Shown here: piece by piece, positions 11,969 through 57,207 of the stretch
How the letters are laid out: the number at the start of each line of letters is the position of its first letter
Position numbering within the stretch: position 1 is the first letter of the stretch
Assembly: GCA_025353485.1 (NCBI GenBank)
Contig: JANXQO010000035.1
Coordinates: 1-64,000, forward strand
Source of the DNA: Chitinophagales bacterium
Lineage (GTDB): Bacteria; Bacteroidota; Bacteroidia; Chitinophagales; Chitinophagaceae
Reading direction: 5' to 3'
DNA: 64,000 nucleotides
Position numbers and translations under genes: made by a program
Notes under the pieces: model-generated
Database searches by the model: none
Seen by the model: only the letters and a program-made list of their open reading frames with translations
Told to the model about the DNA's origin: nothing

Positions 11969-12023
11969 AGCCTCCCCTTTTAGGGGAGAGATAGTGCCGA
12001 AATTTCGGAATTTGGAGAGGGCT
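11969..12023. repeat. GC-rich inverted repeat element (AGCCTCCCC type), 55 bases
   Basis: The left end AGCCTCCCCTTTTAGGGGAG contains a hairpin and the right end reads GGAGAGGGCT, the inverse of the left terminus in style (AGCCxxxCC). The interior includes the palindrome CCGAAATTTCGG. It sits just upstream of the helicase promoter core and belongs with the copies at 16660, 30805, 53791 and 56592. Confidence 0.6.
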
Positions 12024-30804: not shown

Positions 30805-31096
30805 AGCCTCACCCCTTCCCTCTCCACAAGTAGAGAGGGTGAAAGAAGCCTCACCCTCCAACTCTCTCTCCACCTCATCCGCCCTTTGGGCACCTTCTCC
30901 TAAAGGAGAAGGAAAGTGGAATGAATATAATGAGGGAGCGGTACGTTTGAATAATACCAAACATAATATCTTCCATTTCATCATTAAATCTTTGTTGGAT
31001 AAATTTATCTGATGGTAATTTATTTTCAACTTTTGTAAACGGCATTGTGTGTTAGCAAGTCTCCCCTGTTGGGGGAGAGTTAGAGGGGGCGGGGCT
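30805..31096. repeat. GC-rich terminal-inverted-repeat cluster, about 290 bases
   Basis: Several AGCCTCACC-type units follow the stop of the deoxyhypusine-like gene: one at 30805-30840 with hairpin CCCTCTC/GAGAGGG and another from 30848 with hairpins GCCCTTTGGGC and CCTTCTCCTAAAGGAGAAGG. The right end (31058-31096) reads CTCCCCTGTTGGGGGAG then AGAGGGGGCGGGGCT, the inverse of the AGCCxCACCC left ends. The AT-rich middle contains a 56-codon open frame (30875-31045). The cluster fills the gap between two convergent genes. Confidence 0.65.
30875..31045 (-). pseudogene. Possible cargo-gene relic inside the GC-rich cluster
   Basis: A minus-strand frame of 56 codons starts MPFTKVENKLPSDKFIQQ and continues RFNDEMEDIMFGIIQTYRS; its end is made of repeat sequence (SFSFRRRCPKGG). 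The FIQQ...MEDIMFG pattern resembles FIQK...LENMMLG in the relic at 16704-16772. The family is not recognised. It may be a decayed or non-coding remnant rather than an expressed gene. Confidence 0.35.
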
Positions 31097-36054: not shown

Positions 36055-39000
36055 TTAAAAATTATATTTTATTCCAACCTGCCCCTGCCATCTTGAGTTA
36101 ATTGGATCCAAAGTATAATAATGATTGTCTATTCCGGTTGGCTTAACAAAATTAAATGAAGGAACATATCCTGTTGCCGGTGCTCCTGAACTTTTGCCAT
36201 TTGCATCTTTTACAAACTGTAAAAAATTTACAGTATAATTATTAAGATTGGTAACAAACGTTACATGTCCCCAATTATTATTTATTAAATTAAGCACATT
36301 AAAAATATCAAGACTTAATTGCAACGTGTTTGATTTATTGCTCTTGCTTAATTTAAATTCATGCATAAGCTTCATATCAAGATCATTCACAAATGTTGTA
36401 TGCAAACCATTTCTTTCAGCATATTGCCCTCTTCTTGTTTTTAAATATTTATCTCCTTCAATAAAATTATTAAGATCGTTCCATTGGTTTGCTGAACTGT
36501 AAGTAATGTTGCCTGCTGCATCTTTTTTATCAACAAGATTAATATTGGATTGATTTGACGGAATGTATGGCAATGGTGCATTTGAGCCATTTCCAAAAGG
36601 CGCAGATTGATAAATTACACTATACGGAGCGCCTGATTGTCCTGAATAAAAGAATGCAAGAGATGTTGTATTTGTAGTATTCCATGCCATGCTGCCGCTC
36701 CATGTTGCAACTATACGGTTACGAAGATCAAAATTAGAAAAGGCTAATTGAGAATTGCTAGGAGTTATTGTCGGGTTTACATTGTAACTGCTTTCCCATG
36801 AATTGCGGATACCATTGGTAACATCTTTACTCATTCCGTAGGTATAAGCAAGGCTCCAGTTCATATTGAATGAATGCATGCCCATTTTTATATTATTACC
36901 TGCTTTTAAAATTTGGGCGGTAAGGTTGTAACGGTAACCTTGTTTGGTGTTGGTTAAATAGTAAACGTTTGAGAATGTAGAATTATACTTTCCGCCAACA
37001 TACACCGGGGTTTTTGTTGGACCGGTTGAAAAATAGGCAACAGAATCTTTTAAATTTATCTGCTCATATTTTACATCATAAATTGTTTTGGTGTACATCG
37101 CATCAAGGGTAAGTTTATAACCTTTGCCAAATTTAATATCAGTTGCAATGTTGCTTCTCCAAACCGCAGGAAGTTTAAAATTATTATCAAAAATATCTAT
37201 CTCACGGGTACTGCTTCTTGAGGCGCCACCATATTTTGTAACCGTATCTTTTAACCCTGCAGGGTTAATTGCAAGAGGAACATACTGACCATTTGGTAAA
37301 GATGTACCAGGCCCTGCAGGCCCGTTCCAGTCAATGTTTCCGTAAGTTCCTCCATTTAGTGTGTATGCATAACCATACCATGCAAAAGGTATACGTCCGG
37401 TAAATATTCCTGAACCACCACGGATAATAATTTTTTGATTGCCGTTAACATTATATGTAAACCCTAATCTTGGTGACGCTATAATTCTTGAAGGTAATTT
37501 ACCCGTTAGATCTTTAAAAGAAGTATTAGAATAAGTTGGATTAGCAGAAACATAACCTGCGGAATTAGTTGTTGCTAATGCAGGGTCTAAATAAGGCTGT
37601 GAGCCAACAAAAGAATAATCGAACCTGATGCCGGGAGATAATTTAAATTTTCTGCTCACACTAATTTCATCCTGGGCATATAAACTGGTAAGTGCTATAG
37701 TAAACGGATTTGGAGGATTGTTCCTTATCGCATTAATATCATTATTATATTTTGTATCTGTAACAAATGCGCCACGTACACGACTTGGATTATCGTTTAA
37801 AAAACTTTGAAGACCTCTGTTGTATTCAACCCTGCCATTGTATGAATTTATAAATCCATAAGTAAGATCATAAAATTCATTATGCGTTCCGAAGGTAAAT
37901 TTATTGATGCCCTTTGTTACTGTAACATTGTCACTGATCTCAATAGTTTTTTGTTTCAGATTATAAACAGATGCTTCTCTCCATGTTCCTAAAGTTATTC
38001 TTCCGTTATCAATATCAATGTAAGGTGCAATAGGGGCAGGAAAAGTTCGATACTCATGAACATTGATATAACTAATATTGAAAAGATTATTTACACCGTT
38101 ACTAAACTTTGTTTTAAGTTCTGCGGTTAGGTTATAGTTCTTTGTAAACTGTGTAAAGTCGGTTGATCCAAATTGAAAATTGGTAGATGATCTTTCTAAA
38201 TTATTACCACTTCCGTTTGTATAAATGCCCCTTAATGTTAGCGTATTATTATTATCTATTTTAAAGTCAAATCTTCCAAAAAGTTTATCACTGTTGGTGA
38301 AAACTTTATATGTACCAAGGTAACTACCGGGATCGTAATTGTATTTTGTTTTTAATTGATTTACAATTTGTGCTCCTTCTGCTGCCGTCATTGCTGCACC
38401 GGGATCACCCACATTATAAAACGAAGGTTCCTGTCTGCGTGTTTGTTCAAAGTTCACAATAAAGAAAGCTTTATTTCTAATAATAGGTCCGCTAAGGGTT
38501 GCACCATATTGGTAATCGTGAAAATCAGAACCAATTTTTGATTTTAAACCATCAACACTTTTTCCAACCAGTGATTGATTTCTGCCATAGCCATAGATTG
38601 ATCCATGAAAATCATTGGTACCACTTTTAGTTACAGCATTTACGCTTCCTCCTGTAAAATTTCCAAGCTTAACATCATAAGGTGCAATTTGTACCTGCAC
38701 TTCCTGTATCACATCAAGGCTGTAAGGGTTTGTTCGTGTGCCCGAACCCGCCGTACCGGCCTGTCCACCGCCACTAACACCACCGGCAGAATTACTAAAG
38801 CCAAATGCATCATTATTAATAGCCCCATCAATTGTTACATTGTTATAACGAAAGTTTGTGCCTGCAAAAGAGTTGTTATTTGATTGTGGGGTAAGCCTTG
38901 TAAAATCATTAATGCTTCTGCCTATTGTTGGCAAAATGTTCATTTGTGAACGGCTTATATTTAAGCCGCCTGTCGGTCTTCTGCCAGATGCAATAACAAC

Positions 39001-52964: not shown

Positions 52965-53144
52965 ATTTTCAAAAGCCTCTGATTTTGTTTTACCACTAAC
53001 ATGATTTAATTTTACATCACATTCAGGCGGATTTGTTTATTGTTCAGCCTGCTGTTTTAAATCGAACTAATAAACGAAAACCATTCTGTAATCTCTTCAG
53101 GATTTTAAATTTCGTTTAAAAGTTTGTTCTTATATTTTGTTGAT

Positions 53145-53160
53145 CCCGATAGCTATCGGG
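53145..53160. repeat. Palindrome CCCGATAGCTATCGGG upstream of metH
   Basis: A perfect 16-base palindrome 31 bases before the metH start. It is the same core as the pair at 1201-1214 and 1259-1272. It lies where an operator might be, but it is not a known SAM or cobalamin riboswitch. Confidence 0.65.
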
Positions 53161-53191
53161 ACACTTCAGCCGCATACATAAATTAAACAAA

Positions 53192-54334
53192 ATGAAAACA
53201 ATTCACGATTGTCTAAAAGAAAGGATACTTATCATTGATGGTGCAATGGGCACAATGATACAACGCCATAAGCTGGAAGAAAAAGATTACCGCGGCGAAA
53301 GATTTAAAGTATGGCATAAAGATATAAAAGGGAACAACGATCTTTTAAGTATTACCCAGCCCCAAATTATTGAAGATATTCATACACAATATTTGCAGGC
53401 AGGAGCAGATATTATTGAGACCAATACTTTCAGCAGCACATCCATTGCGCAGGCTGATTATGATATGCAATCGCTGGCTTACGAATTAAATGTAGCGGCC
53501 GCAAAGTGCGCAAGAAATGCAGTGAATAAATTTTTAGCTACTTCAAAAGATGATGAGCCAAGATTTATTGCCGGAGCAATCGGTCCCCTGAATAAAACAT
53601 TAAGTTTATCTCCTGATGTAAACAATCCCGGTTACCGTGCAGTAACATTTGATGAAGTTGCTACAGCTTATTATGAGCAGGTGAAAGGGTTGGTTGATGG
53701 TGGCGTAGATATTCTATTAATAGAAACAATTTTTGATACGCTTAATGCAAAGGCTGCTATCTATGCCATTAAAAAATATTTTAGAGATACAGCCCCCTCT
53801 ATCTCCCCCGAAGGGGGAGGAAATGGAGAAGAACAAAGTGAAGAAAGAAAATTATCAAACCATAAATCTTCGCATCAGTCTTCTAACTCTCCCTCCCCTT
53901 CGGGGAGGATAGGAGTGGCTGAACTTCCCCTCATGATAAGCGGAACTATAACAGATGCCAGCGGACGAACATTAAGCGGTCAAACATTAGAAGCATTTTA
54001 CATTTCTGTTTCACATGCAAAACCTTTAAGCATTGGATTGAATTGTGCGTTGGGTGCAAAAGAAATGCGTCCACACATTGAGGAGTTAAGCCAGTTGGCA
54101 AGCTGTTACACATCTGCGTATCCCAATGCAGGTTTACCAAATGCATTTGGAGAATATGATGAGCAACCGCACGAAACGGCGCACATTATTGAAGAGTGGG
54201 CAGCAGAAGGTTTTGTAAATATTGTAGGGGGCTGCTGTGGTACAACTCCCGATCATATTAAACATATTGCAGAGCAGGTAAAAAATTATAGAGCGAGAGA
54301 ATTGCCAATTGTTGAAGAAGAAATTCTTGCATAA
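53192..54334 (+). CDS. metH: Methionine synthase, homocysteine-binding (N-terminal) part
   Basis: The 380-residue product is the first module of cobalamin-dependent Met[61 protein letters not shown], and zinc ligands in [15 protein letters not shown] (Cys) and [10 protein letters not shown] (Cys-Cys). It activates homocysteine for methyl transfer. Between IKKYFRDT and [11 protein letters not shown] the protein has about 41 extra residues (about 200-243), rich in Ser, Glu and Pro, encoded exactly by a GC-rich palindromic element (53791-53920). The next gene supplies the remaining MetH modules after 11 bases, in a different frame, so the split is genuine rather than a frameshift. Confidence 0.92.
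53791..53920. repeat. Palindromic element inserted in frame within metH (first gene)
   Basis: The 130-base segment begins AGCCCCCTCTATC and ends GATAGGAGTGGCT, which match in about 10 of 13 positions when inverted. Inside each end is a hairpin: CTCCCCCGAAGGGGGAG (left) and CCTCCCCTTCGGGGAGG (right). The segment is read through without a stop and encodes about 43 residues absent from usual MetH. It resembles Rickettsia palindromic elements in principle, though the sequence differs. Confidence 0.8.
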
Positions 54335-54345
54335 GAAGAAGAAAC

Positions 54346-57207
54346 ATGAGTGATACAATACATATAAAACCTTTTTTAAGATTGGCAGGACTTGAGCCTT
54401 TAGTAGTGCGTCCGGAAACAAATTTTGTGAACGTTGGAGAGCGAACCAATGTAACAGGTTCTAAAAAATTTGCAAGATTAATAAGAGAAGATAATTATGA
54501 AGAAGCACTTTCGGTTGCAAGGCAACAGGTAGAAAGTGGCGCACAGATATTGGACGTTAACATGGATGATGCATTGCTTGATGGAGAAAAAGCAATGACA
54601 ACATTTCTCAACCTGTTGCAGGCAGAGCCTGATATAGCGAAGATTCCAATCATGATTGATTCTTCTAAATTCAATATTATAGAAGCAGGATTAAAATGTG
54701 TACAGGGTAAGTGTATTGTGAATTCTATTTCGATGAAAGAAGGAGAAGAAAAATTTATTGAGCAGGCGATCATTTGTAAAAGCTATGGCGCTTCAGTAGT
54801 TGTGATGGCTTTTGATGAAAAGGGACAGGCTGATACAAAAGAGCGAAAAGTAGATATCTGTGAAAAAGCATATAAAATATTAACTAAGCAGGTTGGCTAT
54901 GATCCACAGGACATCATTTTTGATCCCAACATTTTTGCGATAGCAACCGGGATTGAGGAACACAACAATTATGGCGTTGATTTTATTGAAGCCACGAGGA
55001 TAATAAAACAGAGAATGCCACTTGCAAAAGTCAGCGGTGGTGTGAGTAATGTTTCTTTTTCATTTCGTGGAAACGATGCTGTAAGAGATGCTATGCATTC
55101 TGTTTTTTTGTATCATGCTATTGAAGCCGGAATGGATATGGGAATTGTAAATGCAGGGCAGTTGCAGGTTTACGAACAAATAGAACCACAATTAAAAGAG
55201 CTTTGTGAAGATGTTATCTTAAATAGAAATGATGAAGCAACCGATAAACTTCTTGCCTTTGCTGAGACAGTAAAACAAAAAGGCAAGGTTGAAGTAAAGG
55301 ATGAGGCATGGAGAGGTGAGCCTGTAGAAAAACGTTTGAGCCATGCGCTGGTAAATGGAATTACAGATTTTATAGATGCCGATACAGAAGAAGCAAGAGT
55401 AAAATATCCAAAGCCACTTGATGTTATTGAAGGCCCGTTGATGGATGGAATGAACATCGTTGGAGATCTTTTTGGAAGCGGTAAAATGTTTTTGCCTCAG
55501 GTGGTAAAAAGTGCAAGGGTTATGAAAAAATCTGTTGCGATCTTAACGCCATACATTGAAGCAGAAAAAGAAGAACGCCGGCTTGGGCATGTTGCAGCAG
55601 GAACAAAAAATGAAGAAGGTGCAGGTGCTGCAAAAATATTATTGGCAACGGTAAAAGGCGATGTACATGATATAGGAAAAAATATTGTTGGTGTTGTACT
55701 CGGTTGTAACGGTTACGATATTATTGATCTTGGGGTAATGGTTTCGGCGGATAAGATTTTGCAAACAGCCAAAGATGAAAATGTTGATATAATCGGTTTA
55801 AGCGGATTGATAACACCTTCATTGGATGAGATGGTGCACATTGCAAGAGAAATGAAACGCCGGGAATTTAAAGTCCCTTTATTGATAGGTGGTGCTACCA
55901 CTTCACGCATGCATACTGCTGTACGCATTGCACCGGAATATGATAATGGAGTCTTGCATGTGTTGGATGCATCAAGAAGTGTGACAGCAGCAGGAAGTTT
56001 ATTAAGTAAAGATCAAAAGCCTGAATTTTTAAAAGGTGTAAAAAAAGAATATGATAAGCTTAAAGTAGATTTTGGAAATAAACAATCTGTAAAAAATTAT
56101 TTACCATTTGCTGAATCTCAAAAGAATGGCGCAAAAATTACATGGGATGATTTTACTCCTGTTGCTCCAACATTTACCGGCACAAAAGTTTTTGAAGATT
56201 ATTATCTTACTGAAATTGAAAAATATATTGACTGGCAACCATTTTTCATAGCCTGGGAAATGCATGGAAAATTTCCTAAACTATTACAAGATGAAATAAT
56301 AGGGAAGGAAGCAACAAAACTTTTTAATGACGCAAAAGATCTTCTGAAAAAAATTATTGAAGAGAAGTGGTTAATAGCAAAAGGTGTGATTGGTTTTTGG
56401 GAAGCAAATAAAATCGCACCTGATACAGTTGAAGTTCAAGTCCCCTCTAACTCCCCCGAGGGGCGAGAACGGGTACGTCTTGAATTCTTACGTCAGCAAA
56501 TTCAAAAAGCAAAAGATCAACCCAATTTATCATTGGCAGATTTTATAAGCCCATCCCCGCAAACCTCTCAGGAGATGCAGGGTTTCACTGAAGCCCCTTC
56601 CCGAGAGGAAGAGGGGAAAGTTCTTTTTTCTTTGAATTTAAATACGCAACAAAATTTTAAAGATACTAACGATCTAAGTTCCCCCTTCGGGGGACAGGGG
56701 GCCGATTTTCTTGGTGCTTTCGCAGTTTCTATTCATGGCATTGAAGAGCACATTAAAAAATTTGAATCTCAGCATGATGATTACAATAAAATAATTCTGC
56801 AGGCATTGGCCGACAGGCTGGCTGAAGCATTTGCAGAATTGCTGCATGAAAGAACCAGAAAAGAATTTTGGGGTTATACAACAGAAGAACATTTGACAAC
56901 GGAAGAATTGATTGAAGAAAGATACCTTGGCATCCGTCCTGCACCTGGTTATCCTGCATGCCCTGATCATACTGAAAAATATAAACTATTTAAACTACTG
57001 AATGCAACAGAAAATGCAGGTATAATACTTACAGAATCTTTGGCAATGTATCCTGCGTCATCAGTTTGCGGCTGGTATTTTGCACATCCTGAAAGCAAAT
57101 ATTTTGGTGTAGGTAAAATAGGCAGAGACCAGCTGGAAGATTATGCAAAAAGAAAAGATATGCCACTTGAAGAAGCGGAAAGATGGCTGCGGCCTGTTTT
57201 AGAATAA
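54346..57207 (+). CDS. metH: Methionine synthase, folate, cobalamin and activation modules
   Basis: The 953-residue product has the pterin-binding domain ([45 protein letters not shown]), the cobalamin-binding domain with [20 protein letters not shown] containing the DxHxxG cobalt-ligand histidine, and the SAM-binding activation domain with [15 protein letters not shown]. With the upstream gene it makes a full MetH. The linker within the activation domain carries about 44 extra residues between ADFISP and DFLGAFAV (about 735-786), overlapping a GC-rich palindromic element at 56592-56703, and a smaller relic at 56439-56467. These should lie in surface loops if the enzyme works. Confidence 0.93.
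56439..56467. repeat. Short GC-rich repeat relic within metH (second gene)
   Basis: AGTCCCCTCTAACTCCCCCG, followed by AGGGGCGAG, matches the left half of the GC-rich elements. It encodes VPSNSPEGR inside the activation domain. Only one arm is present, so it is either a partial insertion or the remains of one. Confidence 0.55.
56592..56703. repeat. Palindromic element inserted in frame within metH (second gene)
   Basis: The left end, AGCCCCTTCCCGAGAGGAAG and AGGGGAAAG, matches the inverse of the right end, GTTCCCCCTTCGGGGGACAG followed by GGGGCC, in base order and hairpin position. The enclosed stretch is AT-rich and read in frame, encoding part of the extra residues of the activation domain. 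Another palindrome-rich run lies directly before it (56545-56590). Confidence 0.7.

Follow-up and report, generated by a model that had tools for sequence, protein, structure and literature searches.

An in-frame palindromic insert in a Bacteroidota metH gene is probably a miniature relative of apparently translated DUF559 nuclease elements

To our knowledge, the origin of palindromic repeats that code for segments of proteins has been an open question since the work on Rickettsia. The Rickettsia palindromic elements are described, in the available part of the report, as dispersed palindromes of 105-146 bp with inverted ends that lie in frame in conserved proteins (PMC2229807). In-frame palindromes are already known outside Rickettsia: according to the accessible portion of a second study, intragenic GTAG and CGTC REPs consist of short hairpin units in inverted pairs, some of which are in frame in uvrA and other genes (PMC3733652). 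A third source, also available in part, presents inteins as selfish nucleases translated in frame inside conserved enzymes (PMC3943268). Here we report an in-frame palindrome in metH-N of a Bacteroidota genome. Comparison of sequences leads us to propose, with a probability of roughly two in three, that it is a miniature and probably non-autonomous version of nuclease elements which settle in permissive loops of core enzymes and are translated there without splicing. We did not recognise a translated, non-splicing nuclease element in the accessible portions of the literature on DUF559, Vsr-like homing endonucleases and in-frame repeats; most subscription journals lay outside the scope of this search, and its negative outcome is weak evidence of novelty.

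The window, by which we mean the whole stretch of 64,000 nucleotides analysed, contains both metH-N and metH-C (Table 1). As a preliminary description of this DNA had claimed, metH-N carries a 130-base in-frame element with inverted ends. The two ends (AGCCCCCTCTATC and GATAGGAGTGGCT) are complementary at 10 of 13 positions, and complementarity between the 55-nt arms (53790-53844 and 53867-53921) is 71%. Single-strand folding of the insert was better than that of all 200 dinucleotide shuffles (z -3.9 as DNA, z -6.3 as RNA). Just one of its six frames is open, namely the frame used by metH-N. As 67% of shuffles equal this count, the whole element is no more open than shuffles.

Table 1. Palindromic features of the window and the genes that carry them.
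Feature	Position	Strand	Remark
metH-N, host gene, homocysteine S-methyltransferase domain, 380 aa	53192..54334	+	Uninterrupted ORF; Pfam S-methyl_trans over whole profile
Two-ended palindromic insert in metH-N, 130 bp, translated as 42 protein letters	53791..53920	+	
Left end unit of metH-N insert, type A hairpin unit	53791..53832	+	69.7 bits to model R1, itself built with this unit
Right end unit of metH-N insert, inverted	53879..53920	-	53.1 bits to model R1, itself built with this unit
metH-C, host gene, pterin-binding, cobalamin-binding and activation domains, 953 aa	54346..57207	+	
Remnant of a single palindromic unit in the metH-C frame; adds about 5 residues compared with relatives	56439..56464	+	
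Nuclease-deleted remnant element, in frame at LADF site of metH-C	~56548..56703	+	

Homologues of MetH-N were searched in 39 genomes including the window's own; 36 genomes had a match, and 30 loci were fetched. The alignment excludes two partial loci ending before the site (L050, L055) and one fragment of the N-terminus (L062). The site is only about 3 residues long in all 27 aligned homologues that span it (the window's own not counted), in agreement with the short link previously ascribed to canonical MetH, and the net gain is thus about 40 residues; the insertion itself stands, and the earlier figure of about 41 residues does not. The insert is missing from all 27 of these homologues, and distant Bacteroidota do not share it as a conserved feature. 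Of 80 named MetH loci, 76 could be read at this site with a sequence pattern: 73 have no insert, and three have other inserts there, one of them bounded by palindromic units. A structure model of the window's MetH-N places the insert between helix 183-200 and strand 247-253, as expected from its reported position between a helix and the LPLMISGT strand. Residues 204-240 were modelled with pLDDT <50 and the rest of the fold confidently (mean pLDDT 83.7), suggesting that the insert region is probably disordered.

The window's own genome (G000) is a 3.82 Mb draft of 189 contigs. We built a covariance model (R1) of the 42-nt type-A unit from 17 units, and scored 150 of 1448 first-look candidates. 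Among the candidates scored, G000 contains 15 units of >=48 bits, at 13 places, so that the units of the insert do recur in this genome, as had been anticipated. Twelve of the 13 places were examined: at six, the unit shares the reading frame of a gene, either internally or at its end (metH-N, an alpha/beta hydrolase, a proline racemase, RelA/SpoT, UvrA and, at its C-terminus, a metallo-beta-lactamase-fold protein), and six have no recognised gene frame running through the unit. The model had matches at E <= 0.01 in 7 of 39 genomes, namely G000 and six further genomes of the genus; those scoring above 48 bits were confined to G000, G010, G015 and G008, within the same 150 of 1448 candidates scored. 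The full element was detected at E <= 1e-12 only in G000 and G015 among 20 genomes of the genus. The sister species G015 has its full copy, 90% identical, within a GH43 protein, where orientation and frame match those in metH-N. A search of plasmids with the DNA of the metH-N element gave no match. We also considered whether the unit is built to be open in many frames, and rejected this: five of its six frames are open, but 38% of dinucleotide shuffles equal that.

By its architecture (130 bp, palindromic, inverted terminal repeats), and by the dispersal of the element and its units in frame in unrelated genes, the metH-N insert resembles the Rickettsia palindromic elements. The suggestion that a Rickettsia-like process operates in Bacteroidota was sound in that a dispersed palindrome has become a protein segment tolerated by a core enzyme; what it missed is the tie to a nuclease. 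The presence of a nuclease-bearing partner with the same ends sets the Bacteroidota elements apart from those of Rickettsia, for which the available part of the report mentions none (PMC2229807).

The insert might be kept for a benefit to the enzyme, as an exapted loop. The RelA/SpoT insert is in frame in both G000 and G015, and the alpha/beta hydrolase insert is shared by G000 and G008, as such retention would predict. The metH-N insert, however, is absent from every spanning homologue, and its peptide was modelled with low confidence. Between the metH-N copy and the GH43 copy of G015, the codons with a single change comprise 9 non-synonymous and 2 synonymous cases (one further codon has two changes), and we therefore rejected the idea of peptide conservation: at the sequence level the peptide is unconstrained between the two mini copies. 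Exaptation is accordingly hard to credit.

The partner mentioned above was found in the sister species G008, in which acetyl-CoA synthetase (Acs) contains an in-frame insert of 559 bp that has an inverted pair of type-A units at its ends and encodes a DUF559 domain. The halves of the mini-element align with the ends of this Acs element with scores of 74 and 54 (best of 200 shuffles, 35 and 26, respectively). As this likeness to the full element lies mostly in the end units, descent of the metH-N copy by internal deletion is likely rather than proven. The DUF559 copy with type-A ends is in G008, and none was seen in G000.

The hairpin units also recall REPs, and the metH-N insert could be a REP/REPIN-type element moved by a RAYT (Y1 HUH transposase), with the DUF559 elements merely sharing or hijacking similar ends. 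Such an origin would account for the short hairpin units in inverted pairs, seen in the metH-N and G015 GH43 copies, some of them in frame as are REPs in the accessible portion of the published study (PMC3733652), and the genome has 10 Y1_Tnp matches. We consider it unlikely, however. A regular-expression scan showed no type-A unit beside any of the eight Y1 loci fetched (of the 10), which makes these eight improbable as the source of the element. Inspection by eye found neither the GTAG nor the CGTC tag at the ends of the type-A consensus on either strand, and in G008 it is a DUF559 gene that the type-A units bound.

We then turn to the DUF559 elements themselves. A search of 24 genomes gave 23 matches in 11 of them, of which 18 strong loci were analysed and 5 weaker ones set aside. 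In 10 of the 18, the domain is embedded in a core enzyme and shares one frame with the host sequence that flanks it at either end. The hosts are MetH, IcmF (four species), LeuRS (two sites), AroC (two species) and Acs. Three others are fused to the end of TrpA, ArgB or HemE, and five are free. Inverted hairpin ends scored above every mononucleotide shuffle (50 or 30 per locus) in 15 of the 18 loci, the exceptions being L119, L120 and L131.

Across the class, DUF559 was detected at E <= 1e-15 in 118 of the 295 genomes sampled; among the matches listed, the best 150 by score, 76 belong to frames of >=300 aa, 70 to frames of <=200 aa and 4 to frames of intermediate length. In 19 of 29 new loci, the domain is flanked at both ends by sequence of the core enzyme that houses it (LeuRS 9, MetH 7, IleRS 1, Acs 1, HsdR 1); one is at the end of a glutamine amidotransferase-domain protein, and nine are free. 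A single open frame runs through 18 of the 19 internal copies (18 of the 29 loci). The number is 18 rather than 19 because in the LeuRS copy L161 a stop codon follows directly after the element, in the host frame; in another LeuRS copy (L158) a stop further down ends the frame. Judged by the arrangement of reading frames alone, none of the 14 free copies in the two sets has disrupted a host gene. In 23 of the 29 loci, inverted hairpin ends scored above every shuffle; over both sets, an end repeat above shuffles was absent in 9 of 47 (3/18 and 6/29). A plasmid search with the nuclease domain returned 39 records, none reaching 60% identity. One contig of 45,741 bases is present twice in identical form (L195 and L142, a duplicate record). 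The HsdR case (L145) is an in-frame DUF559 inside a type I restriction protein, so that one nuclease houses another.

Full MetH frames with DUF559 were found, among the 80 named MetH loci, in Nubsella zeaxanthinifaciens TDMA-5 and in two MAGs; in Cnuella takakiae RG1-1, the DUF559 domain is in a metH-C frame adjoining masked bases. These records bear on the possibility that the insert is an assembly or binning artefact, since G000 is a draft in many contigs. The element nevertheless recurs with different flanks in another draft species (G015), and the Nubsella record, with its full DUF559-in-MetH frame, is not marked as a MAG; an artefact has next to no probability.

Given that introns and inteins are common homes of homing nucleases, as the available part of the intein source states (PMC3943268), the insert might instead be cut out of the RNA, skipped by the ribosome or lost from the protein by splicing, in which case the enzyme would never carry it. 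The DUF559 copies do share with inteins a nuclease in frame inside conserved enzymes. They differ in their hairpin DNA ends and in that Pfam scans of the DUF559-bearing proteins gave no splicing (Hint) domain and no intein family. Moreover, nearly all the sites examined retain an open sequence in the host's frame, something that removal from RNA or bypass would not need, and the two sites modelled are a loop and a linker. We thus hold removal to be very improbable. In the model of a Nubsella MetH fragment (mean pLDDT 79, pTM 0.51), the nuclease sits between two MetH domains, and the surrounding structure matches E. coli MetH with Z 28 and 6.7 A over 244 residues; judging from this model, MetH would keep its fold around the embedded nuclease.

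The second metH gene of the window provided a comparison of the same site among relatives. At the LADF site of metH-C, 13 of 17 aligned sequences (16 relatives and the window; the fetched relative G020 had no alignable frame) have a short junction, and the sister species G003 holds a DUF559 element. G000 and G015 have a common remnant without nuclease and with similar flanking peptides, and G010 has a smaller one. The remnant of the window does not fold better than shuffles (z -0.73). The short junction of G019 resembles the right end of the element and could be a scar. In these alignments, the site shows a series among sister species from empty, through nuclease-bearing, to deleted remnant. 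On the basis of this comparison across relatives, the window contains three elements: the metH-N mini-element, the deleted element of metH-C, and the remnant at 56439. At three MetH sites compared by eye, we saw no evident target-site duplication of the kind expected of a DDE-type IS or MITE, and a few host bases appear to have been replaced.

The nuclease signature is well kept. Six of seven marked residues, including E, D, ExD and the following H, are invariant in all 38 non-free DUF559 rows (one of them a duplicate record), and the histidine of RRQH is kept in 35 of the 38. A profile of eight domains, compared with solved chains, matched 3hrl (E 1.4e-31) and 3r3p, "Mobile intron protein" (E 1.4e-6), the latter of which we take to be the EDxHD homing endonuclease I-Bth0305I. 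DUF559 resembles EDxHD (Vsr-like) homing endonucleases such as this one in having a related domain with invariant acidic and histidine residues; it differs in its palindromic ends, in the occurrence of related lineages in different host genes, and in that no intron or intein was seen around it. Between G000 and G015, dN and dS are 0.076 and 0.858 in IcmF, and 0.043 and 0.315 in AroC, values that indicate purifying selection on the sequence in these two orthologous pairs; several of the further pairs had saturated or undefined dS.

In a tree of 53 DUF559 domain rows, the internal insertions other than HsdR, together with one end fusion, form one side of 34 rows (support 84/93, from a bootstrap that had not settled). 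Outside it fall the free copies and the three remaining end fusions. The IcmF copies of the four species form one group (98/90), which fits inheritance. The MetH LADF and LeuRS editing-site copies are scattered over the tree, each site requiring 6 changes, of which at least 2 are forced by well-supported branches; the same loops have thus probably been entered repeatedly. The topology fits a combination of movement between genes and inheritance, and strict site-specific homing as the sole mode is unsupported by it.

These results can be drawn together as follows. Complete members of the proposed elements (559 bp in the one measured) would encode a DUF559 nuclease of the Vsr-like, EDxHD type, with a frame open through both palindromic ends. 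Insertion in sense and in phase into a permissive surface loop would let the element borrow the promoter and ribosome-binding site of the host gene, and the host protein is predicted to gain it as an additional domain or loop, with no splicing. The nuclease would subsequently be lost by deletion, leaving in-frame linkers such as those of the window. What carries this reading is the empty sites, the repetition of element and frame elsewhere, the shared ends, the intact nuclease signature, the selection seen in two pairs and the repeated use of loops. We infer that the nuclease moves the elements and recognises their hairpin ends, that the host-element fusions are produced and functional, and that internal deletion, not the pairing of two units, gave rise to the metH-N copy. 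On a wider claim we are evenly divided: that palindrome-ended DUF559/EDxHD elements constitute a new class of mobile element, translated without splicing in loops of essential enzymes across the Bacteroidota class, which moves between host genes, re-invades the same loops and decays into in-frame mini palindromes.

The nuclease-bearing relatives with the same ends, and the series within one gene from empty to full to remnant, offer a candidate source of protein-coding palindromes. If the explanation is true, here a selfish nuclease spares its host gene by being tolerated inside the protein and not by splicing, and mobile DNA has a route to add loops and domains to LeuRS, MetH and other core enzymes. 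The elements would also mark permissive loops in MetH, LeuRS and UvrA.

Several other repeats were observed in the window and in related genomes. One loop of UvrA is hypervariable (L250-L254): the inserts that repeats encode there differ between G000, G015 and G010, its length is intermediate in G012 and G019, and it is short in 8 of the 13 species aligned (13 of 20 fetched loci). The metH-N gene of the sister species G010 (L070, G010:C2, about 38735-38759) has a palindromic unit at a different loop, with a G run that breaks the frame and may be either a switchable tract or an assembly error. The window has two further CCCC hairpin units (31061-31091 and 11972-11988), probably intergenic or at gene edges. 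In G000, two CTCCGCC..GGCGGAG hairpins come after an IS200-like Y1 transposase gene (L031 1945-2047) and may represent a separate REP-type system. Finally, a second dispersed palindrome, GATCCCGATAGCTATCGGGA, lies just upstream of metH-N (53142-53163) and also at 1197-1218 and 1255-1275 of the window. Its pattern, allowing <=2 mismatches, occurs in the genome 66 times on the forward and 59 times on the reverse strand (reversed control, 0), and one match is inside uvrA (C141:26484), apparently in frame (PDSYRD) as deduced from its coordinates.
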